Assembly (NCBI GenBank): GCA_014649555.1
Contig: BMTG01000001.1
Location: 682,001 to 746,000 of the forward strand
DNA from: Streptomyces globisporus
Lineage (GTDB): Bacteria > Actinomycetota > Actinomycetes > Streptomycetales > Streptomycetaceae
DNA: 64,000 nucleotides
Reading direction: 5' to 3'
Made by a program: the position numbers and the translations under genes. The notes beneath the pieces were generated by a model. It was not told the DNA's origin and searched no databases. It saw only the letters and a program-made list of their open reading frames with translations. Positions 2,971 to 22,290 of this stretch are shown here, in pieces (position 1 is the first letter of the stretch; every line of letters begins with the position of its first letter).

Positions 2971-3798
2971 TCACCCGGCCAGGGCCCCCAGCAGCACTCC
3001 GGTCAGCGCCCCGGCGATCATGAACGGGCCGAACGGAATGCCGGTCCTGCGCCCCGCCCGGCGCAGGAGCACGAGGGCGAGTCCGTACGCCGCCCCGAAC
3101 AGGAACCCGGCGAACCCGCCCACGAACAGCACGGTCCAGCCGTACCAGCCGAGGGCGACGCCCAGGGCGAGGGCGAGCTTCACATCGCCGAAGCCCATGC
3201 CGTTCGGGTTGATCAGGAAGAGCAGCAGGTAGAAACCGCCGAGGGCCAGGCCGCCCAGCAGCCCGGAGGTCCAGGACCCGGCGTGCCCGGGGAGCAGTGC
3301 CGCCCCGCCCAGCAGCAGGACGGCCGCGGCCGCGAGGGGCAGGGTCAGCGGGTCGGGCAGCCGGTGGACCCGCCGGTCGACGACGGCGAGGAGCACGGCG
3401 ACGGGGGCCAGTGCCAGCCACCCGACGAGCTCGGGCCGGGCCCCGGTGGCGGCGGCGAGCACGACACAGGCGAGGGCGGTGACGAGGGGGGCGAGGGTGG
3501 TGGGGGCGTAGGCGGGGGGTGTGGGGGCGGGCGTGATCTGCGGTTCCGGGCCGGTCGCTTCCGAAGCCGGGGCTCCCGGGCCGGGGGTTTCCGGGACCCG
3601 GGCGGCCGGGGCGGCGCAAGGCGCGCACCGGGCCGGGCCGAGCCAGCCGCGGGCCGGGCCGGTGAGCGGGTGGCCGGCGGGGCACGCCGTGCGCCAGGGC
3701 TCGTCCGGCTCGACGGCGAACCGGTAGGCGGCACGCGGGATCAGCAGTCCGGTGACGGCACCCCAGACCGCGGCGAGGGCGAGCAGCACGGCGTCCAC
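2971..3798 (-). CDS. Type IV/Flp prepilin peptidase (A24 aspartic protease)
   Basis: 275 residues, polytopic membrane protein. The two catalytic aspartates of A24 peptidases are visible: D141 in VDRRVHRLPD and D205 in the signature GFGDVK (204-207). Cys39, Cys58 and Cys61 with a CPAGH segment near the N-terminus recall the zinc-binding cytoplasmic loop of bifunctional PilD enzymes, but the loop is reduced and followed by a Pro/Ala-rich linker, so methylase activity is doubtful. The predicted role is to cut G|XXXXE[FY] leaders of the Flp, TadE-like and 6610-8649 products. It is coded away from the pilus locus. It starts with GTG, and a -10-like TAGGGT at 3805-3810 (minus strand) would place transcription start almost on the start codon, so the mRNA may be leaderless. 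Confidence 0.88.
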   Translation of the reverse strand: MDAVLLALAAVWGAVTGLLIPRAAYRFAVEPDEPWRTACPAGHPLTGPARGWLGPARCAPCAAPAARVPETPGPGAPASEATGPEPQITPAPTPPAYAPTTLAPLVTALACVVLAAATGARPELVGWLALAPVAVLLAVVDRRVHRLPDPLTLPLAAAAVLLLGGAALLPGHAGSWTSGLLGGLALGGFYLLLFLINPNGMGFGDVKLALALGVALGWYGWTVLFVGGFAGFLFGAAYGLALVLLRRAGRRTGIPFGPFMIAGALTGVLLGALAG

Positions 3799-5727: not shown

Positions 5728-6336
5728 TCAGACCCCTCCCACCCCTCCCAGCACCTCGTTCCCGAACACCTTCCACGGCGACATCTCCACCGCGTCCATC
5801 ACCGCCAGCTGCGGGTGCCGGGCCGCCGTCTCGTCCCGTACGGCGACGGTGTCCGGCCAGGCCTCCAGGTGCGCGGCGCCCTCGATGACGACGCCGTCCC
5901 AGTCGGTGGCGGCCGTCGCACCCGCCCGGTCGACGACGAAGCCGATGCACAGCACCGAGGCCCGTCCGACGGTCCGCCGGATGGCGCCCACCGCGTGCTC
6001 CCGCTCCGGCTCGGGCAGCTCCCCCACGGAGAACTCGACGGCGACGACACCGGCCCGGGCCCGCCGGATGCGCACCAGGAGGTCGTCACCCCCGTCCGTC
6101 CACAACCGGAACCCGACCTCGTGCAGCCGCTGGAGGCCGGCGAGGGACAGCAACTGTTCGCGGGTGACGGGCGAACGGGCCCCGAGGGATGCGGAGTCGA
6201 GGCTGACGAGCACCGTGCGGCCGGACGCCGGGTGCACCGGGCGGAGCCCCTCGGCCTCCAGGTCGCCCAGCAGGGTGCGGGCGTCCAGCCGGGTCCAGCC
6301 GAGGTGGTACGAGTAGAAGAATCCGGCACCCACCAT
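5728..6336 (-). CDS. Hypothetical protein, 202 residues
   Basis: I do not recognise the family. From the ATG at 6336 the protein begins MVGAGFFYSYHLGWTRLD and continues as an alternating alpha/beta soluble protein, with VVAVEFSVGELPEPEREHAVGAIRRTVGRASVLCIGFVVD in the middle and MDAVEMSPWKVFGNEVLGG near the end. There is no signal peptide and no membrane span. It is divergent from the 679-residue prepilin-like gene, with a 273-base shared control region containing repeated GGGCCC-type boxes, so the two may be coregulated. Confidence 0.65.
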   Translation of the reverse strand: MVGAGFFYSYHLGWTRLDARTLLGDLEAEGLRPVHPASGRTVLVSLDSASLGARSPVTREQLLSLAGLQRLHEVGFRLWTDGGDDLLVRIRRARAGVVAVEFSVGELPEPEREHAVGAIRRTVGRASVLCIGFVVDRAGATAATDWDGVVIEGAAHLEAWPDTVAVRDETAARHPQLAVMDAVEMSPWKVFGNEVLGGVGGV

Positions 6337-6609: not shown

Positions 6610-8649
6610 GTGAGCGGTGACGGGGGCGCAGGCCGGGGCCGGACCCGGGGAGACCGGAGCGCGGGGCACATACCGCTGGGACGCCACGGCATCGCCGGTT
6701 CCGGTGTCCCGTACCCACCCCAACAGGGCAGCCGGTTCTTCGCGTTGACCCGGAGCTGGGTGATCGGCAGCCTGGTCTACCTCGCCCTGGGGTTCGCCAC
6801 GAGCCGGGTCCTGGTCGATCTGCTGGCCACCAAGGAGCGGCTGGAGTCGTTCGGCTGGCGGCTGGCCCTGCTCCACCTGCCCGCCCTCGTCGTGACGCTG
6901 CTGACGGTGCTGGCGGCGACCCGCATCCTTCCCGAGGAGCACCGCGAGTCCTCCCGCACGGTGTATCTGCTCGCGGCCCTGCCCGTACCGCTGGCAGGGC
7001 TGCTGTACGGCTTCGCCGTCGCGGGGGACGTCGTCGGCATCGAGGGCGTCCTCATGCCGGCCGTGTCACTGGCGGCGGGCGCGGCGTCGGGGGTGGCCGT
7101 CGACCGGCTGCTGGAGGAGCGCGCCACCCGGACCCCGGAGCCGCCCCGGTACGCGTACAACTGGCGGGACAGCGGCGCGACGGCGATGGAGTACCTGGGT
7201 GTCGTCGTCCTCGTCACCATGCTGATCGGCGCGATGGCGATGGCCGGGGTCGGCGGCAAGATCGGGGAGCGGCTGCGGTGTGCGATCAGCTCGCTGGCCG
7301 GTGGCGGCGGCTCCTGTGCGTCCGGCGGCCAGGACCCCGAGGCCAAGCCGAAGACGGACGCGGACTACGAACCGAAGATGTGCCAGGTCTCCAGCATCTC
7401 GGACACGGCGGGCGGGAAGGTCAAGATCGGCTGGTTCGAGTGGGGCGAGGAGTACGGCTTCCAGCAGAAGGTCTCCCAGGCGAGCACCGATGTGAACGGC
7501 GACGGCACGGTCGACGGGAAGGACAAAGTCGTCTCGATGACGTTCACCGACGCCGCGTCCGCCGGGGCCACCGCCAGCACTCCGGGCGTCAAGCTCGGCA
7601 GCCTGGGCAAGGCGGATGTCGACATCGGCGGGGGCATCAAGATCACCAACGGTGACACCTGGATCTTCGCGAGCGAGGAGGAGGCTCAGCAGATGCGGGA
7701 CGACATCGAGGAGATGAAGATGTGGGAGACCTCCACCAAGCACAGCGGCGGCTACGGCGGCGGCTGGTACTCCGCGATGAAATGGGCGGAGAAGAAGGAG
7801 GACATCGAGAAGAAGATCGGCGACAAGAAGATCTCCTACTCGACCGTCGGCCTCAACGCCTACGCGGACGGCGGACTCTCCGTCAAGGGCGGCGACGAGG
7901 ACGAGCTGGGCGCGAAACTCGGCGGGAAGGCGACGTTCTCGCCCGAGGTGACGATCACCAAGGACGACGTGAACGGCAACGAGTCGTCCACGTACACCGC
8001 CAAGCTCGAACTGGAGGGCAAGGCCGGCGGGAATGTGGGCCCGGTCAAGGGCACGGTGGGCGGCAAGCAGAACCGTACCGGCGCCATCACCGTCACCCGC
8101 GACCAGAAGACCGGGAAGATCGTCCGGATCGACATGACACAGACCGTGGAGAGCGGCTCGACGTCCGGCAAGGTCGAGGTCGGGGGCGACAACGGCGAGA
8201 GCGGCCAGGACAAGCGGGGCGGCAAGGGCAGCGCGTCGGACTCCTCGGGCGAGACGGGCATCGACGTCGTGACGAACTCGATCGTCTTCGGCAAGGACAC
8301 GGACGCGGCGACCGAGGCCGAGCGGGGCATCGCGGAACAGTGGCTGGACGGCTCCGGCAACAACACGGCCCCCTTCGCGTACCTCTTCGGCGACCACGGC
8401 ATGGAGAACCGCCCGGACGGCAACGACCCCTTCCAGCAGCTGATGTTCGAGGACGGGCTGTCCAGCACCATGCGGTACACGGGCGAGAGCGACGCCCAGG
8501 AGTTCGGCTTCGAGATCTCCCTCGGGATGAGCCTCGGGTTCTCCCTCTCCACGGAGGAGAAGAAGGAGACACTGACGGACGCGCAGTTCCTCGGGGCCCC
8601 GCGGGGCGACGCGCGCACGTATCTTCCGTACAGCTACTGCGCGAACTGA
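6610..8649 (+). CDS. Polytopic membrane protein with internal Flp-type prepilin motif and large exported domain
   Basis: 679 residues from GTG 6610 (AGGAG 11-15 bases upstream). Residues about 1-40 are polar. Four hydrophobic segments follow up to about 170 (FFALTRSWVIG, LALLHLPALVV, LLAALPVPLAG, LMPAVSLAAG). Then comes DSG189|ATAMEYLG, a perfect class III prepilin site G|XXXXEY with a hydrophobic helix (VVVLVTMLIGAMAMAG) closely resembling the Flp pilin. The remaining 480 residues are Gly/Lys/Asp-rich, predicted outside, with a dockerin-like calcium loop at D294-D305, a repetitive Lys/Glu region and a C-terminal YLPYSYCAN. Cutting after G189 would release a 490-residue pilin-like product and leave a four-helix remnant. 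I know of no family with this layout. It is followed 8 bases later by a lipoprotein gene, probably in one operon. Confidence 0.78.
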   Translation: MSGDGGAGRGRTRGDRSAGHIPLGRHGIAGSGVPYPPQQGSRFFALTRSWVIGSLVYLALGFATSRVLVDLLATKERLESFGWRLALLHLPALVVTLLTVLAATRILPEEHRESSRTVYLLAALPVPLAGLLYGFAVAGDVVGIEGVLMPAVSLAAGAASGVAVDRLLEERATRTPEPPRYAYNWRDSGATAMEYLGVVVLVTMLIGAMAMAGVGGKIGERLRCAISSLAGGGGSCASGGQDPEAKPKTDADYEPKMCQVSSISDTAGGKVKIGWFEWGEEYGFQQKVSQASTDVNGDGTVDGKDKVVSMTFTDAASAGATASTPGVKLGSLGKADVDIGGGIKITNGDTWIFASEEEAQQMRDDIEEMKMWETSTKHSGGYGGGWYSAMKWAEKKEDIEKKIGDKKISYSTVGLNAYADGGLSVKGGDEDELGAKLGGKATFSPEVTITKDDVNGNESSTYTAKLELEGKAGGNVGPVKGTVGGKQNRTGAITVTRDQKTGKIVRIDMTQTVESGSTSGKVEVGGDNGESGQDKRGGKGSASDSSGETGIDVVTNSIVFGKDTDAATEAERGIAEQWLDGSGNNTAPFAYLFGDHGMENRPDGNDPFQQLMFEDGLSSTMRYTGESDAQEFGFEISLGMSLGFSLSTEEKKETLTDAQFLGAPRGDARTYLPYSYCAN

Positions 8650-8656
8650 ACGGGCG

Positions 8657-9307
8657 GTGACGGAGTCGATGAGTACGACGACGAGTACGACGACGAGTGC
8701 CAGGGCGCGGAACGTGCGGAAAGCCCTGCGGCGGATGACGGCTGTCACCGCGGCCGTCGCGGGGGCGGCCGTGCTGCTGACCGGATGCGGCGGCGACGCG
8801 GACAAGGCGTCCGTGCCCGAGGGCTGGGGCACGTTGGAGACCGGCAGCCTGAGCGTCGGCTACCCGGAGAGCGAGGGGTACGCGGAGCAGCCGGCGGGCG
8901 AGCGGGCCAAGGCCAACGCGGCCGTCGCGCTGAAGGAGGAGGACGGCATCCGGACCGGCATGGTCTCGGTCCAGCTGGACTTCGCCACGGGCGTGCACGA
9001 CGCGGCCGGGGCGGCGGCAGCGGCGGGTGCCGGCATCGGCCTCAACTCCACCCGCAAGGCGACGGACGACGTACGCCTCGCGGGCCCGGACGACGCCGGC
9101 GAGGCCCGCGAAGCACGCCGGATCGACTACGACTTCACGGCGGACGGCCAGGAGGACACCCCGAACAGGGGGACACCGATGACCGGGGTCCTGGTCGCGG
9201 GGGTGGACTCGAAGGGCGTTCCGTTCGTGGTGCGCCTGAACGCGGTGAAGGACGCGGTGGACGCGGAGGACCTGGACGCGTTCGTGGGGTCGATCACGGT
9301 GAAGTAG
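8657..9307 (+). CDS. Putative lipoprotein downstream of prepilin-like gene
   Basis: 216 residues if GTG 8657 is used; ATG 8669 is an alternative and neither has an ideal ribosome binding site. A Ser/Thr-rich, Arg-containing N-terminus leads to a hydrophobic stretch ending in lipobox LLTGC (Cys44), so the protein should be lipid-anchored on the outside of the membrane. The mature part (GSLSVGYPESEGYAEQ, GMVSVQLDFATGV, ARRIDYDFTADGQ, GVPFVVRLNAVKD) resembles LpqN/PsbP-like small actinobacterial lipoproteins, with a C-terminal VGSITVK. The 7-base gap after the prepilin-like gene suggests cotranscription and a joint envelope role. Confidence 0.8.
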   Translation: MTESMSTTTSTTTSARARNVRKALRRMTAVTAAVAGAAVLLTGCGGDADKASVPEGWGTLETGSLSVGYPESEGYAEQPAGERAKANAAVALKEEDGIRTGMVSVQLDFATGVHDAAGAAAAAGAGIGLNSTRKATDDVRLAGPDDAGEAREARRIDYDFTADGQEDTPNRGTPMTGVLVAGVDSKGVPFVVRLNAVKDAVDAEDLDAFVGSITVK

Positions 9308-12040: not shown

Positions 12041-12682
12041 TCAGGACCCCTCTCCGCGCGGGAAGGAGACCTCCACGCGGCGGTTCTTCTTCCGGCCCTC
12101 TTCGTTGCTGTTGCTGGCGATCGGGTACTGCTCGCCGTAGCCCCGGATCTCGTACGTGACGGTGGGGCCGAGCTCCTTCGACAGGACCCCGTGCACGGCG
12201 TCGGCCCGCTGCTTGGACAGGACGTCGCCGTGGGCCGAGGAGCCGAGGTTGTCGGTGAAGCCGAAGACGCGGACCTTGGTCGCGTTCTGCTTCTTGATCT
12301 CCTCGGCGATGGCGGCGATACGGGCATTGGCCGCCGAGCTGAGCTTCGCGCTGTCCTTGCCGAAGAGGACTTCCGCCTGGAGCGCGAACTTGATGTCGGC
12401 GTTGCTGTCCTCGCGGCGTTCCTCGCCGCCGAGGTCCTCGACCACCTGGACGATGTCGAGGACCTTGGACGGACCGAGGGTGCCCCCGTCGGGCATCTTC
12501 AAGTCCGGGTCGTTGGGGTCCACCTGAACCGGTGGCACCGACTGCGCTTCGGTTCCCGGGGGGACGCTCGGGCCGTCGTCGGCCAGGGCGGGCGTCGCCC
12601 CGAACAGCGTGAAGCTCGCGACGACCAGGAATGAGGCGGCCGACAGCCCTACTGGCTTCATCCGGGTGCGTGTGTGTGTCAT
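12041..12682 (-). CDS. Secreted OmpA-family (peptidoglycan-binding) protein of the Tad locus
   Basis: 213 residues from ATG 12682. A signal peptide (KPVGLSAASFLVVASFTLFG..ALA, about 1-35) is followed by an acidic linker and a C-terminal OmpA domain from about 95: ALQAEVLFGKDSAKLSSAAN, VFGFTDNLGS, LSKQRADAVHGVL and NRRVEVSF. These residues in OmpA/MotB proteins contact the diaminopimelate of peptidoglycan, so the product should bind the wall outside the membrane. No beta-barrel precedes it, as expected in a Gram-positive. It is the last gene of the flp-tadG-lipoprotein group, 8 bases after the lipoprotein stop. It may anchor the pilus machinery to the cell wall. Confidence 0.88.
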   Translation of the reverse strand: MTHTRTRMKPVGLSAASFLVVASFTLFGATPALADDGPSVPPGTEAQSVPPVQVDPNDPDLKMPDGGTLGPSKVLDIVQVVEDLGGEERREDSNADIKFALQAEVLFGKDSAKLSSAANARIAAIAEEIKKQNATKVRVFGFTDNLGSSAHGDVLSKQRADAVHGVLSKELGPTVTYEIRGYGEQYPIASNSNEEGRKKNRRVEVSFPRGEGS

Positions 12683-13340: not shown

Positions 13341-13949
13341 TCACTGGTCGACCAACCGCACATCGAAGAGGGTCCTGCTCACCGTCTCCCACGGTGGAGG
13401 GCTGCCCGGTGCGATCTCAAGAACCTTGCCGTTCCGGCACGTGAAGATGAAAAGGTCCATGATTCCGTCGCTGTTGGCGTCCACAGCCTTCGGGCGGGGG
13501 CACCGGAACTCGATGAGCGCGGTGGCCTTGGCCTTGGCCTTCTTGTTCTCCGAGCCGGGCAGTACCGAGGAGTCGACCGCCTTCAGGCCCTGGACCTTGA
13601 CCGTGATCCGGTCGCGCAGATATCCAGGAGTCGGATAGCACGAGGTCTTTCGGGCGTCGTTGGCCGCCGCCAGACGGTCCGCCTCGAAACAGCCATCAGC
13701 GAAAGGTGCGTTGAGGAACAGATCCAACGCGTTGGTGGGGAGCGAGGCGTAGAAGCCCGTCCCGAAGTCGTCGCGTGCCTGCTGGGCGGCGGCCAGAGCA
13801 GCGGCGTCGGCCGCGCCCTGGGAACCGTTGCGCAGAGCCGACGCCTTGCCGACAGCGAAGAAGGCCAACGCAAGGAAGAGCAGGCCCGCCACCATCATGA
13901 TGTAGATGGGGAAGGCCTGCCCTCCGTCGTTGCGAGAACGACCGATCAT
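13341..13949 (-). CDS. TadG-like pilus assembly protein
   Basis: 202 residues; ATG 13949 shares its A with the TGA of flp, so translation is coupled. The N-terminus RNDGGQAFPIYIMMVAGLLFLALAFFAVGKAS and GSQGAADAAALAAAQQ is the TadG/TadE-like helix followed by the usual Ala-rich segment. The Glu+5 of the processing site is missing (GQAFPI), so cleavage is doubtful. The exported part has several Cys (FADGCFEAD, KTSCYPTPG, EFRCPRPK, FTCRNGK) that may pair. A calcium-loop-like DANSDGIMDLF lies near residues 155-165. TadG proteins are minor pilins thought to sit at the pilus base or anchor it. Confidence 0.85.
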   Translation of the reverse strand: MIGRSRNDGGQAFPIYIMMVAGLLFLALAFFAVGKASALRNGSQGAADAAALAAAQQARDDFGTGFYASLPTNALDLFLNAPFADGCFEADRLAAANDARKTSCYPTPGYLRDRITVKVQGLKAVDSSVLPGSENKKAKAKATALIEFRCPRPKAVDANSDGIMDLFIFTCRNGKVLEIAPGSPPPWETVSRTLFDVRLVDQ

Positions 13950-14179
13950 CACTGAGCCGTGATGGAATCCACCAGACCGCTGATGCGCTCCGAGATCGCG
14001 CCACCGATTCCCGTGGCCACGATCGCCCCGATGATCGCCACGACCACCAGAATGATCCCCAGGTACTCGAACGCCGTCTGCCCCCGGTCCTTCGCCGCGT
14101 AGCGCTTCTGGATGGCGCTGACGGCGGTGTTGGCCCAGCCGTTGACGCGGACGGCGGTCTTCACGGTGATGTCCGACAT
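13949..14179 (-). CDS. flp: Flp family type IVb pilin
   Basis: 76 residues from ATG 14179, with GGAGGGG 8-14 bases upstream. A 33-residue leader ends DRG33|QTAFEYLG, matching the Flp consensus G|XXXXEY, and is followed by IILVVVAIIGAIVATGIGG and a short tail to give a 43-residue mature pilin. This is the predicted major subunit of the Tad pilus, cut by a prepilin peptidase such as the one at 2971-3798 and polymerised by the TadA/B/C machine coded at 16.9-20.1 kb. It is the first gene of a separate operon with tadG-like, lipoprotein and OmpA-like genes. Confidence 0.92.
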   Translation of the reverse strand: MSDITVKTAVRVNGWANTAVSAIQKRYAAKDRGQTAFEYLGIILVVVAIIGAIVATGIGGAISERISGLVDSITAQ

Positions 14180-17815: not shown

Positions 17816-18760
17816 TCAGACGTCGATACGGGACAGGCGGCGGATGACCACGAAGCCGATGGCGTACAGCACGATCGCCACGACCACCGCCGCCTGGCCG
17901 ATGAACGCGCCCGTCATCCGGTCCAGGGCGCCGGGCATGACCGCGTTCATCAGGAGCATCGCGCCGATGCCGAAGATGGGGACGGCGTAGGCGGTGACGG
18001 TGACCTGGGAGAGCTGGGTCTTGACCTCGCGGCGGGTCTCCTTGCGCTCCTCCAGGGTCTCGGTGAGGTTGCGCAACGAGCTGACGACCGTACCGCCGGC
18101 CCGGTTGGAGAGGACCAGCGTCGTGACCAGGACGACCAGTTCGCGGGAGGGGAGGCGATCCGTCAGTTCGCTCAGTGCGTCCTCCAGCGGTTCGCCTACG
18201 GCCAGGCGCCGTGCCACCCGGGCCAGTTCCTCGCCCGCCGGGTTCTCCAGCTCCTCGGCGGCCATGGACAGCGAGGTGCGCAGGGCCAGGCCCGCCTGGG
18301 TGGCGTTGGCGAGGATGCGGGAGAGCTCGGGGAGCTGGTTGATGAAGCGCTCGGTGCGCTTGATCCGCTGCCAGTTGAGGAACGCGTTGGTGCCCCAGAG
18401 GCCGATCAGCGCGGCGACCGGGCCGAAGAACGCGGCGAGCATGGAGGAGGCGATCATCCAGAGCCCCGCCATGGCGACGACCGCGTAGACGAGGAACTCG
18501 CCGGGCGTGATGTCCAGGCCGGTCGCGGCGAGCTTCAGCTCCAGTTTCCGGCCGAGTGCGGTGCCGCGCAGCCTGCGGTCGAGCCCCTTGAAGCGGCGGA
18601 TGCGCCCCGTCTCGGGGATCTGCCCGACGTGCGAGAGCCGTTCGACGAGGGCATCGCGGTCGGCCTTGCCGCCGGAGTAGGCGTACAGGCCCATCACGCC
18701 GAGCACGCAGCACAGCAGCGTGACGCCGACGGTGACCAGGGGGAGGTTGACGTTGTCCAT
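17816..18760 (-). CDS. tadB: Tad pilus inner-membrane platform protein TadB
   Basis: 314 residues with a GspF domain: ELSRILANATQAGLALRTSLSMAAEELENPAGEELARVARRLAVGEPLEDALSELTDRLPSRELVVLVTTLVLSNRAGG, flanked by hydrophobic helices at about 5-25, 95-140 and 265-305. The KETRREVKTQLSQVTVTAYAVPIFGIGAMLLMNAVMPG segment is typical of TadB. It is the platform partner of TadC and TadA. The start at 18760 follows the tadA stop by 10 bases. Confidence 0.9.
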   Translation of the reverse strand: MDNVNLPLVTVGVTLLCCVLGVMGLYAYSGGKADRDALVERLSHVGQIPETGRIRRFKGLDRRLRGTALGRKLELKLAATGLDITPGEFLVYAVVAMAGLWMIASSMLAAFFGPVAALIGLWGTNAFLNWQRIKRTERFINQLPELSRILANATQAGLALRTSLSMAAEELENPAGEELARVARRLAVGEPLEDALSELTDRLPSRELVVLVTTLVLSNRAGGTVVSSLRNLTETLEERKETRREVKTQLSQVTVTAYAVPIFGIGAMLLMNAVMPGALDRMTGAFIGQAAVVVAIVLYAIGFVVIRRLSRIDV

Positions 18761-18770
18761 GGCGCGGTAC

Positions 18771-20108
18771 CTAGTTGGCCTCTCGGGTGGCGAGCTGTTC
18801 GGCGGACTGGGCGACGCCGAACGCCTGCGGGATGGGCTGACTGGCCAGGTAGAGGCGCTCGGCGAGCCTCCGGGGCAGCGGGAGGTACTGGAAGTCGCCG
18901 TGGATGCGACCGTCCGGGGCCATCGGTTGCGCGTTGAAGCGGGCGACCGTGACGATGCGGTACGGGTCGCGGCCGTGGCTGTCCAGGACGGCGATCTCAG
19001 TGATCTTCCTGGCGCCGTCGGCGTGCCGGGTGAGCTGGACGATCACGTCGACGGCGCTGTTGATCTGGTCGTGCAGCGCCTCGAAGGGGATCTCGACCTC
19101 CGACATCGAGGCGAGGGTCTGGAGCCTCATCAGCGCGTCCTCGGCGCTGTTGGCGTGGACGGTGGCCAGCGAGCCGTCGTGACCGGTGGACATCGCCTGG
19201 AGCATGTCGAGCGACTCGCCGCCTCGGACCTCACCGACGACGATCCGGTCGGGGCGCATACGCAGCGAGTTGCGGACCAGGTCGCGGATGGTGATCTGCC
19301 CCTTGCCCTCGACGTTGGCCGGGCGGGACTCCAGCCGGATCACATGGCTCTGCTGGAGCTGGAGTTCGGCGGAGTCCTCGATGGTGACGATGCGCTCGGC
19401 GTTCGGGATCAGCCCGGAGAGCGCGTTGAGGAGAGTCGTCTTGCCGGTGCCGGTGGCCCCCGAGACGATGATGTTGAGCTTGGCCTGGACGAGCCCGGCG
19501 AGCAGCACCAGCATCTGTTCGTCCAGCGAGCCGAAGCCGATCATCTCCTGGAGGGTGAAGGAGCGCGGGAAGCGGCGGATGGTGAGCGTCGCGCCGGTCA
19601 GCGACAGCGGCGGGATGATCACGTTGACACGTTCGCCGCTGGGGAGGCGGGCGTCGACCATCGGATTGGACTCGTCGACGCGGCGGTTGACGGTCGACAC
19701 GATCCGCTCGATGGTCTGCATCAGCTGCTCGTGGGAGCCGAAGCGCATCGGAAGCTGCTCGACCCTGCCGTTGCGCTCGACGAAGATCTGGTCGGGGCCG
19801 TTGACCATGATCTCGGTGATGGACGCGTCCTCCAGCAGCGGTTCCAGGATACCGAGGCCGAGCGCCTCGTCGACGACGCGGCGGATGAGCTGCGAGCGCT
19901 CGACCGTGGAGAGGACCGGGCCCTCGCGGCTGATGATGTGGCCGAGGACGCGTTCCAGCCGGGCCCGCCGGTCGGCGGCGGCCAGCGAGGACATCTCCGC
20001 GAGGTCGATCTCCTCCAGCAGCTTGGCCCGGTAGGTGGCCACCAGGTGGCCGTCCTCCCGTGCCCCACCCTGCTCCTCCGGAGCGGTCATGCGTGCCCGC
20101 AGGCTCAT
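18771..20108 (-). CDS. tadA: Tad pilus assembly ATPase TadA/CpaF
   Basis: 445 residues from ATG 20108 with AGGAG 9 bases upstream. An N-terminal helical domain is followed by the secretion ATPase core: Asp box region TIRRFPRSFTLQEMI, Walker A GATGTGKT (217-224), Asp box TIEDSAELQ, Walker B RIVVGEVRG (289-296) and His box MSTGHDGSLATVHANS. This hexameric ATPase drives Flp pilus polymerisation in the cytoplasm against TadB and TadC. Length and order fit CpaF. It lies in the middle of the operon, 47 bases after the TadE-like gene. Confidence 0.95.
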   Translation of the reverse strand: MSLRARMTAPEEQGGAREDGHLVATYRAKLLEEIDLAEMSSLAAADRRARLERVLGHIISREGPVLSTVERSQLIRRVVDEALGLGILEPLLEDASITEIMVNGPDQIFVERNGRVEQLPMRFGSHEQLMQTIERIVSTVNRRVDESNPMVDARLPSGERVNVIIPPLSLTGATLTIRRFPRSFTLQEMIGFGSLDEQMLVLLAGLVQAKLNIIVSGATGTGKTTLLNALSGLIPNAERIVTIEDSAELQLQQSHVIRLESRPANVEGKGQITIRDLVRNSLRMRPDRIVVGEVRGGESLDMLQAMSTGHDGSLATVHANSAEDALMRLQTLASMSEVEIPFEALHDQINSAVDVIVQLTRHADGARKITEIAVLDSHGRDPYRIVTVARFNAQPMAPDGRIHGDFQYLPLPRRLAERLYLASQPIPQAFGVAQSAEQLATREAN

Positions 20109-20155: not shown

Positions 20156-20548
20156 TCAGAAGCCGAAGCCGGATTTTTCGTTGGGCATGGTCGTACTCCG
20201 CTCGGCCCACCAGCCGTCCAGCCCCGGCACGACGGAGGGCACCCTGACCCGGACCGTGACCGTGATGTCCTGGCCGCCGCTCTCGCGGTAGCGGAACCCG
20301 CCGCTCTCCACCCAGTCGCTCACGGCGTCGCGGGCGTTGGACTGGCCGCTGCCACGGGCGTCCACGCTGGCCGCCGTACGGGCCCCGGCGCGGGCGGCGG
20401 TGCCCGCCTGGCTGGCGGCGTACGCGGCGAGGCCGAGCTGAATGGCTCCCATCGCGACGAGGAGCAGCAGGGGGAGGAAGCCGAGGTACTCCATGGCGAC
20501 CTGGCCCCGGTCGCGGTCGGTCCCGCGGTGCGGGCGCGTCGTCGTCAC
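20156..20548 (-). CDS. TadE-like pseudopilin (second copy)
   Basis: 130 residues from GTG 20548, which overlaps the stop of the preceding tadE-like gene by 4 bases (GTGA). DRG15|QVAMEYLG is a perfect prepilin site, followed by FLPLLLLVAMGAIQLGLAAYAASQAGTAARAGARTAAS and a beta-rich exported tail with TVTVRVRVPSVVPGLDG. It is a predicted minor pilin that is cut like Flp and helps initiate or cap the pilus. Ends 47 bases before tadA. Confidence 0.9.
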   Translation of the reverse strand: MTTTRPHRGTDRDRGQVAMEYLGFLPLLLLVAMGAIQLGLAAYAASQAGTAARAGARTAASVDARGSGQSNARDAVSDWVESGGFRYRESGGQDITVTVRVRVPSVVPGLDGWWAERSTTMPNEKSGFGF

Positions 20549-20973
20549 TGGTCCTCCCTCGGCGATCCGGCCTTGCCGGTGATCTTTGTGTCGAGGTCGA
20601 ACAGGCCCGGCACCAGCACCGGGACCTTCAGCTCCACCGTGGCCTCGTACAGGCCGCTGCCTCCGCCGCAGTCCACGTCCGCCGCCTTGCGCCAGGCGCT
20701 GGGCAGATCCTTCAGCGCTCCCTGCCTGCACGCCGTCCCGGGCGCGAACTCCGCCCCGCTGCCCTTGCGCGCGCCCACGTCCGCCGCGTTGCCCGCGAGG
20801 CTGAAGGTGTAGCCGATCAGGGCGCACTCCCAGAGCACGAGCATGATCAGGATGATGAAGGGGGTCATGCCCAGGAACTCGACGGCCGTCTGGCCGCGGT
20901 CCCGGCCCCGGCGGTCACGTAGGGCGGTGATCCGCCCCCGTATGCCGCTGCGAGCTGTTCTCGTGGTGGTCAT
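20545..20973 (-). CDS. TadE-like pseudopilin (first copy)
   Basis: 142 residues. A basic leader ends DRG27|QTAVEFLG, a prepilin site of the TadE type, followed by MTPFIILIMLVLWECALIGYTFSLAGNAADVGARKGS. The exported tail has Cys at ECALIG, GTACRQG and ADVDCGGG, and a VELKVPVLVPGLFDLD strand that parallels the second TadE-like protein. The start follows the cpaE stop by 3 bases and its stop overlaps the next gene by 4, so the three are translationally linked. Confidence 0.9.
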   Translation of the reverse strand: MTTTRTARSGIRGRITALRDRRGRDRGQTAVEFLGMTPFIILIMLVLWECALIGYTFSLAGNAADVGARKGSGAEFAPGTACRQGALKDLPSAWRKAADVDCGGGSGLYEATVELKVPVLVPGLFDLDTKITGKAGSPREDQ

Positions 20974-20976
20974 CGC

Positions 20977-22290
20977 TCAACGTGTCCCCTCGGAGTCTCC
21001 GGCGCCGCGGCCGGAGCCGTCGCGCCGGCGGCGCGGGCGTCCGATCGAGCCCCGGTCGTTCTTGAAGGCGCCGCTGTTCCGTTTGACCAGGGCACCGCCG
21101 CTCTTCTTACCCGTCGCACTCTCCTTGACGATGCCCAGCTCTCCGGCCAGGCCCCAGAGCGCCTGTTTGACGGTGCTCTTGGCGTCCAGTTCGTGCAGGC
21201 GTCCGGAGTCGATGGACGCCTGGAGCTCCTTGAAGTTCGCGGGGACCGCCGCCGAGGCGACCCGGGTGCCGGTGATCTTCTGGATCAGCGGCGGCTGGAT
21301 CTCGGTGTTGCGGGTGAAGCGGTTGACGAGGGTGACCGTCTCCTCCGCCTTGCGGATCTGGAGCCGTTCCCACATCCGTACGACGCGTTTCGCGCCGCGC
21401 ACCGCGACCACGTCGGGGGTGGTGACCAGCACGGCCACGTCCGCCATCTCGACGGCGGCCGCGTTGGCCCCGTTCATCTGGCCGCCGCAGTCGATGACGA
21501 CGATCTCGTAGCGGGTGCGCAGGGCGCTGACGATCTGGCGGGCCGACCGGTCGCTGACCTCCTCGCCGCGCTCGCCCTCGCCGGGGGCGAGGAGCAGGGC
21601 GAGGCCGGTGGAGTGGGAGAACACCGCGTCGGACAGCACCCGCGGCGATATGTCGGTGATCAGGGCGAGGTCGACCAGCGAGCGGCGGAACTGGACGTCG
21701 AGGAACGAGGCGATGTCCCCGGTCTGGAGGTCCATGTCGACCAGCGCCACCGTGTTGCCGGACGCCTGAGCGGCCAGGGCGAGTTGGATGGCCGTGACGG
21801 TCGCGCCGACACCGCCCTTGGCGCCGGTGACCGTGACCACGGTGCCGCCGGGGCCGGTGAAGACGTCGTTGCCGGAGGTGAGGTGGCGGCGCACCCCGGC
21901 GGACCACTGGGCGGCCGCCTGGACTCGGTTGGCGAGTTCCTCGTAGCTCAGCGGGAGGGTGACCAGGCCGCGGGCTCCGGAGTCCATCGCGTCGGCGAAG
22001 AGGTTCGGGCTGGCGTCCGCGGTGATCAGGACGACGCCGACGGACGGGAACCGCAGCGACACCTCCCGGATCAGCTCCAGGGCCGGCACCGGGCCGATCC
22101 GCTCGTGGACCAGCACCACCTCGGGCAGTTCGTCGAGCGCCTCGCCCGCGAGGCGCGCCAGGGTGTCGATGAGCTGGGTGGAGTCGCCGACCGGGGTCGC
22201 CGGTTCCGCGTCGGGCAGCTGGCTGAGCAGGGTGGTGACGGAGCGGGCCGCGTCGATGTCGCCGACGGCCGGGAGGATTCTGGTGGTCAT
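20977..22290 (-). CDS. cpaE: CpaE/TadZ-like pilus ATPase
   Basis: 437 residues from ATG 22290. The N-terminal 130 residues form a receiver-like atypical domain (VVLVHERIGPVPALELIREVSLRFPSVGVVLITA). A ParA/MinD-type domain follows with a deviant Walker A, K158GGVGAT, in which the second Lys/Thr position is Ala; a switch region VDMDLQTGDIASFLD and VVIDCGGQMN are present. TadZ proteins localise the pilus machine to a site in the cell. The C-terminal tail is Lys/Arg-rich and disordered. It lies between cpaB (7-base gap) and the tadE-like genes. Confidence 0.9.
   Translation of the reverse strand: MTTRILPAVGDIDAARSVTTLLSQLPDAEPATPVGDSTQLIDTLARLAGEALDELPEVVLVHERIGPVPALELIREVSLRFPSVGVVLITADASPNLFADAMDSGARGLVTLPLSYEELANRVQAAAQWSAGVRRHLTSGNDVFTGPGGTVVTVTGAKGGVGATVTAIQLALAAQASGNTVALVDMDLQTGDIASFLDVQFRRSLVDLALITDISPRVLSDAVFSHSTGLALLLAPGEGERGEEVSDRSARQIVSALRTRYEIVVIDCGGQMNGANAAAVEMADVAVLVTTPDVVAVRGAKRVVRMWERLQIRKAEETVTLVNRFTRNTEIQPPLIQKITGTRVASAAVPANFKELQASIDSGRLHELDAKSTVKQALWGLAGELGIVKESATGKKSGGALVKRNSGAFKNDRGSIGRPRRRRDGSGRGAGDSEGTR

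Follow-up and report, generated by a model that had tools for sequence, protein, structure and literature searches.

Layout of the open reading frame

We analysed a 64,000-nucleotide stretch of the Streptomyces globisporus genome (contig BMTG01000001.1, positions 682,001 to 746,000), called the window below, whose positions are used for all coordinates of the open reading frame (ORF) studied here. This ORF (6610..8649, +, 679 amino acids) joins a four-helix membrane domain, a Flp-type prepilin module and a beta-rich cargo domain, and comparison with related loci makes it nearly certain that it is a fusion of two genes that relatives keep apart, one for the four-helix protein and one for the pilin. 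Genes and Flp-type sites were predicted with home-made tools of our own, so that some genes may be missed and some starts shifted.

The frame 6610-8649 (+) is open over 679 codons, with a coding-type distribution of G+C content (GC) over codon positions from about 6700 to the stop, and GAGGAGAGGG lies immediately 5' of the GTG start at 6610. Residues 2-40 are poorly conserved, so the actual start may be slightly downstream. The membrane domain follows (6733..7128, +; residues 42-173). AlphaFold places helices at residues 42-72, 81-106, 116-123/125-138 and 144-173, hydropathy blocks are found at 43-74, 80-109, 117-165 and 188-219, and the agreement of the two over residues 42-173 makes four membrane helices a fair reading, as the initial annotation had said of its four hydrophobic segments before the site. 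The prepilin-peptidase motif G189/ATAMEY (7174..7194, +), with a predicted cut after codon 189, is followed by the hydrophobic Flp-type helix of the mature protein (7177..7257, +; residues 190-216), recognized by hydropathy, conservation and a low-confidence model helix, and by a pair of conserved cysteines (7279..7317, +), of which C224 is nearly invariant and C236 invariant in 10 aligned rows. A cysteine after the Flp helix is also present in the alignment of the toxin-bearing paralogues described below.

The cargo domain (7360..8646, +; residues 251-679, about 430 amino acids) is predicted to form a porin-like beta-barrel with helical inserts, and contains a dockerin/EF-hand-like loop, DVNGDGTVDGKD (7465-7524, +; residues 286-305), which Pfam scores below cut-off (E 0.1). 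A hydrophilic domain of about 480 residues had been annotated after the site; the large mature part stands, but it amounts to 490 residues after G189 and comprises the helix, the two-cysteine linker and the beta-rich domain of about 430. The product reaches the cut-off of no family in Pfam or NCBIfam, in agreement with the annotation that no described family has this layout, and comparison of the ORF family with solved structures by sequence gave two weak stray matches only.

Fused and split forms in relatives

The best 78 distinct Streptomyces loci from 102 confirmed relatives were compared, with calls made by our gene caller and profiles and the presence or absence of neighbouring genes judged within the stretch fetched around each locus (loci carry L numbers below). 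The two parts are fused in 40 loci and split in 38, where the pilin has its own gene. A separate four-helix gene is found downstream in 35 of the split loci (all but L130, L146 and L163); the 40 fused loci show none within the stretches examined. By hhalign, the four-helix domain of the fused loci is a homologue of the separate protein (probability 99.8, E 8e-30). In a tree of 82 cargo rows, a branch with 100/100 support separates all fused forms from the rest, which are exclusively split forms, several of them on long branches, so that a single fusion event suffices. The possibility that the N-terminal part is an artefact of a mis-called start or a frameshift is ruled out by the GC pattern, by selection (see below) and by the 40 fused loci.

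In a search of 61 genomes, three Streptomyces besides the window's had full-length relatives, and six more had the two separate genes. At E 1e-8, 62 of 392 Streptomyces genomes gave a match: on our reading of the match table, at least 20 of these carry the whole fusion (71-100% identity) and at least 32 a Flp and cargo match starting near the site (35-55% identity), the remainder having partial, broken, paralogous or four-helix-only matches; with three candidates scored per genome, these counts are lower bounds. The cargo profile found matches in three of 396 actinomycete genomes, namely the window's own, another Streptomyces and genome G445.

Other combinations of the same parts exist. In L085 (6334-8055, -) and L086 (4143-5873, +), the cargo domain stands behind a different, helical-looking N-terminus with no Flp site, which we take to be ESX/WXG100-like, with no supporting Pfam or NCBIfam match. 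Four-helix genes with no adjacent cargo are found in L074 (4619-5209), L075 (4726-5346), L076 (1013-1522), L077 (4814-5431), L078 (4870-5337), L080 (4796-5245) and L081 (5518-5964), four of the seven still carrying a remnant of a decayed Flp helix.

Conservation of the prepilin site

The strict pattern of the site (G, four residues, EY, then a hydrophobic stretch), run on the 62 predicted genes of the window, matched in three only: this ORF, the Flp pilin (13949-14179, -) and the TadE-like gene at 20156-20548 (-). The initial annotation had given the motif for the TadE-like proteins of the window as well; it holds for the pilin and one TadE-like protein, the second TadE-like gene having E-F instead of EY. 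The exact Flp-type site that it had seen in the ORF, G189/ATAMEYLG, is confirmed, the chance rate of the strict motif being 0.04 matches per window (200 shuffles within 8-residue blocks).

Residues G-1, E+5 and Y+6 are retained in all 40 fused loci. The split loci that could be read at the site (37, one further locus being masked) have G/E/Y in 35 cases, G/E/F in one and G/D/Y in one, whereas D or G replaces E+5 in the four truncated fusions that have lost their cargo (L074-L077). Conservation of the site in the ORF is, from these alignments, close to certain. A start codon is present 13-22 codons before the site in 30 of the 37 readable split loci, giving a leader of ordinary prepilin length, and the nearest start is farther away in the other 7. 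In the fused form, the leader is 189 residues long with four helices, and not the short hydrophilic leader of the Flp/TadE type.

In 11 comparisons, the ratio of non-synonymous to synonymous substitution rates (dN/dS) lay between 0.24 and 0.64 in the four-helix domain, and between 0.13 and 0.39 in the cargo. The linker before the site (16-17 codons) is nearly unconstrained, with values of 0.66-2.7 from few sites. On these estimates, the ORF, with its membrane domain, site and cargo, is under purifying selection.

The number of helices that precede such a site was counted in 72 different proteins, each 300 or more residues long, taken from loci fetched as relatives, the window's own family included. 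Four helices are found in 33 proteins, none in 33 and three in 6; no protein has one, two or five. By eye, five of the three-helix cases have clipped-looking starts and the sixth has a weak helix. One of the 33 helix-free proteins has a leader above 60 residues. Prepilin peptidases cut on the cytoplasmic side of the membrane, and an even number of helices brings the site to that side, so that the zero-or-four pattern fits a topological demand. The proposal in the initial annotation that the protein is cut inside the membrane is therefore probably incorrect.

The partner lipoprotein and the Tad cluster

Downstream of the ORF lies a lipoprotein gene (8657..9307, +) with a lipobox ending in LLTGC. 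A lipoprotein gene of the same family follows the cargo gene in 77 of the 78 loci, the exception being a contig end, and the lipobox cysteine is invariant in 29 aligned rows. The pair of cargo and lipoprotein genes also occurs in a distant actinomycete. By sequence, the lipoprotein matched no solved structure, and Pfam gave stray weak matches only on the 29 lipoproteins. A small exported protein near the L086 cargo gene, considered as a member of this family, was dropped, as it belongs to Inhibitor_I42 in Pfam. A DUF3592-type gene (L103:8675-9124 and similar) is present in many operons of both the fused and the split form; our gene caller found none after the window's lipoprotein gene. On the other side, an opposite-strand gene with no Pfam family (5728-6336, -) is conserved beside the fusion in several relatives.

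The Tad cluster of the window comprises the following genes, assigned by Pfam except where indicated: a prepilin peptidase (Peptidase_A24, PF01478, E 4e-13; 2971..3798, -), an OmpA-domain protein that we used as marker of the cargo site (12041..12661, -), a TadE/G-like protein (Pfam Tad; 13341..13949, -), the Flp pilin (13949..14179, -; assigned by motif, with no Pfam match at E 0.01), a TadB/C-type T2SSF protein (17816..18760, -), a TadA-type ATPase (T2SSE; 18771..20108, -), two TadE-like genes (20156..20973, -) and a ParA/MinD ATPase (20977..22290, -), which we take to be TadZ.

Predicted fold of the cargo

Two AlphaFold models, one of the window protein and one of a homologue, suggest with moderate confidence that the cargo domain is a porin-like beta-barrel. 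Their mean predicted local distance difference test (pLDDT) scores are 68 and 72, and the alignments behind them share most rows, so that the two models are not independent. Plain Foldseek searches at E 0.001 gave no hits with the window model; the homologue gave three, to FadL, with low template modelling scores (TM-scores). The hydrophobic faces of the predicted barrel are mild only. The modelled fold resembles the outer-membrane beta-barrels CymA, OmpG and FadL; however, identity is about 5-12%, the host is monoderm and the domain is joined to a pilin helix, and we claim no membership of these families.

Toxin-bearing paralogues at the same site

Beyond what had been annotated, domains of polymorphic toxins are found in proteins of the same layout whose four-helix domain is unrelated. 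A Flp module, preceded either by a short leader or by that other four-helix domain, heads proteins in which Pfam recognizes Tox-REase-5 (L040, L041, L044, L050, L088 and L206), Abhydrolase_8 (L042 and L222), pretoxin-HINT (for example L047, L048, L075, L079, L172, L173 and L196), HINT with EndoU (L049), a deaminase (L186), RHS repeats (L224) or a calpain-type peptidase (L225). The last two proteins are from outside the genus, and their Flp-type site is directly before the RHS repeats (L224:1411-5445, -; 1344 amino acids) or the peptidase (L225:2994-4352, -; 452 amino acids). Pfam matched no toxin family in the Flp-module proteins of L045, L046, L074 and L185. The scan covered the Flp-site proteins other than L171:2958, L172:974, L181, L190:10373 and L191.

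Two more proteins with four helices and a Flp site are encoded in the window's own genome, one with Tox-REase-5 at C1 ~59.8 kb (L041:7913-10402, -) and one with Abhydrolase_8 at C13 ~237 kb (L222:2848-5241, -). When 296 actinomycete genomes were scanned with a profile of the four-helix and Flp module of the paralogues, 7 gave a match, which was full-length in just two, both Streptomyces and including the window's own genome. That this four-helix domain and the window's form one family was considered and rejected, as profile comparison gave a probability below 1%; the two are treated as unrelated, with the limits that 5 of the 40 fused rows, missed by the motif pattern, are absent from the window's profile and that the paralogue profile was built from nine sequences. 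With no detectable relationship between the two domains, this arrangement appears to have more than one origin.

The toxin genes of L040, L047, L048, L050 and L088 lie between the OmpA and DUF192/peptidase genes, which is the position of the ORF. Of the 99 genomes in which OmpA was matched, 40 were surveyed at this site, mostly top-scoring ones and excluding genomes already examined, hence not a random sample. Over about 17 kb, to the peptidase gene where found, a large Flp-site protein was present in 12 of the 40 genomes (10 if the window's own family is set aside), and our pattern detected none in 28. An Imm52-type gene follows the toxin gene of L088 (E 1.8e-6, above cut-off) and that of L041 (E 5.6e-5; 23.3 bits, below the cut-off of 25). 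As a group, the Flp-module paralogues fit the polymorphic-toxin pattern of a constant N-terminus, varying toxin domains and adjacent immunity genes. The window ORF itself has a constant C-terminus and no toxin-domain match in Pfam or NCBIfam.

A proposed modular pilin with a membrane partner as leader

The combination of a pilin module with a large module that is not pilus-specific, as seen in the alignment and the model of the ORF, is the layout of a modular pilin. Such pilins are a known kind: PilB of Streptococcus sanguinis has a class III signal peptide and a large non-pilin module, which is thought to be displayed at the tip, and to which the cargo is comparable, as far as the accessible part of that paper goes (PMC8179133). 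The PilB leader, however, is described there as a seven-residue hydrophilic peptide, whereas that of the ORF is a four-pass membrane protein and its module a beta-domain outside known families. In the Kil/Tad tips of Myxococcus, KilN is a minor pilin of large size whose C-terminal domain varies and which takes part in contact-dependent killing, and the ORF product resembles it as a large putative Tad-type minor pilin with a C-terminal module; the likeness is by description, the Kil system having TadEFG-type heterotrimers in diderms, with no multipass leader described in the sections available (PMC12075869). Flp pilins are also listed among the secretion-targeting or anchoring parts of ARC polymorphic toxins, which have a different cargo and for which the accessible text mentions neither a four-helix leader nor a cargo site in a Tad cluster (PMC12605009). 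A word search of PMC3482391, over the first 300,000 of its 357,715 characters, returned no pilin, pilus, Flp, TadE or prepilin. No title or abstract on this layout was found in the literature searched, which held no preprints and few subscription papers, and a multipass membrane partner as prepilin leader is new as far as these searches go.

We propose, with a probability of about 0.68, that the ORF product is a modular minor pilin of the Tad system, with its membrane partner serving as leader, and that it belongs to a Tad-linked effector family. The four-helix domain would insert with both ends in the cytoplasm, and the linker and G189 would lie at the cytoplasmic face, for cutting by the Tad prepilin peptidase (2971-3798). 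Cleavage would free the four-helix membrane protein, made by relatives from its own gene, together with a mature modular Flp pilin, its helix in the membrane and its beta-rich domain outside; a cut after G189 would give the two proteins that relatives encode in two genes, the membrane domain standing in for the leader peptide. The Tad machine would then display or release the mature pilin, most likely at the pilus tip, with the lipoprotein as partner. How the chain crosses the membrane, its cleavage, its display on a pilus and any action against neighbours are inferred from the genes and models described above: cleavage at G189 appears likely, and display by the Tad pilus rather probable, with somewhat less assurance. 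Of the new class of Tad-linked surface protein put forward in the initial annotation, the link to Tad, the conserved site and its probable cleavage stand; the protein is a fusion, however, and its pilin half is a modular pilin, which is a known kind.

Several points weigh against this proposal. The helix after the site is modelled with a pLDDT below 50. The OmpA gene of the Tad cluster is matched in 99 of 101 Streptomyces genomes, so that co-occurrence with Tad says little. A conserved cargo with a constant C-terminus is unlike the classical tip of a polymorphic toxin. No precedent for a cut by a prepilin peptidase after a four-pass domain, and no study of a Streptomyces Tad pilus, appeared in the literature searched. 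Finally, an internal start may yield a short-leader form, although start codons near the site sit at no fixed positions.

Other readings concern what the cargo is for. It could bind a surface or a partner, as an adhesin or a surface-sensing tip. Binding modules are found on many of the known modular pilins in the accessible text of PMC8179133, and the conservation of the cargo and its possible calcium loop, below cut-off as it is, would agree with such a role. However, all known binding domains score below cut-off in Pfam and NCBIfam and the same place in the Tad cluster is taken by toxin-bearing relatives, and we consider an adhesin possible, at somewhat less than even odds.

A less probable reading, which is compatible with the modular pilin since the latter leaves the purpose open, is that of an effector acting on the envelope. 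On contact, the porin-like barrel would enter a neighbouring cell's membrane; immunity would come from the lipoprotein and perhaps also from the four-helix protein, and the fusion would supply toxin and protector in equal numbers. The moderate pLDDT of two non-independent models, the sparse Foldseek matches and the mild hydrophobic faces speak against it; moreover, the toxin paralogues combine an unrelated four-helix domain with separate immunity-type genes, so that the four-helix domain need not be an immunity protein. We regard this role as unlikely.

That the product is an uncut surface protein, its five helices anchoring the cargo and its Tad link being historical, would account for the long anchor, and processing is here a prediction from sequence, but an anchor needs no G-1/E+5/Y+6, which 40 of 40 fused forms keep while the linker before the site varies freely, and this is the least probable reading.

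Significance for Tad pili of Streptomyces

A wider view may be sketched, which we hold to be rather improbable in its entirety: the Tad pili of Streptomyces would be weapons with exchangeable cargo, four-helix leaders of at least two unrelated origins would feed large effectors to the peptidase, and the ORF product would carry a porin-like, pore-forming barrel made in one polypeptide with its own membrane-bound protector, the two being separated by the peptidase.

For the modular pilin itself, the naturally occurring fusion identifies the membrane protein that acts together with a Tad minor pilin. It also leads one to expect prepilin-peptidase activity behind a multipass domain, and the existence of split and fused forms allows direct testing. 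The toxin-bearing paralogues suggest effector delivery by Tad pili of Gram-positive soil bacteria; in the sources accessible to us, contact killing by Tad-type pili is described for predatory diderms.
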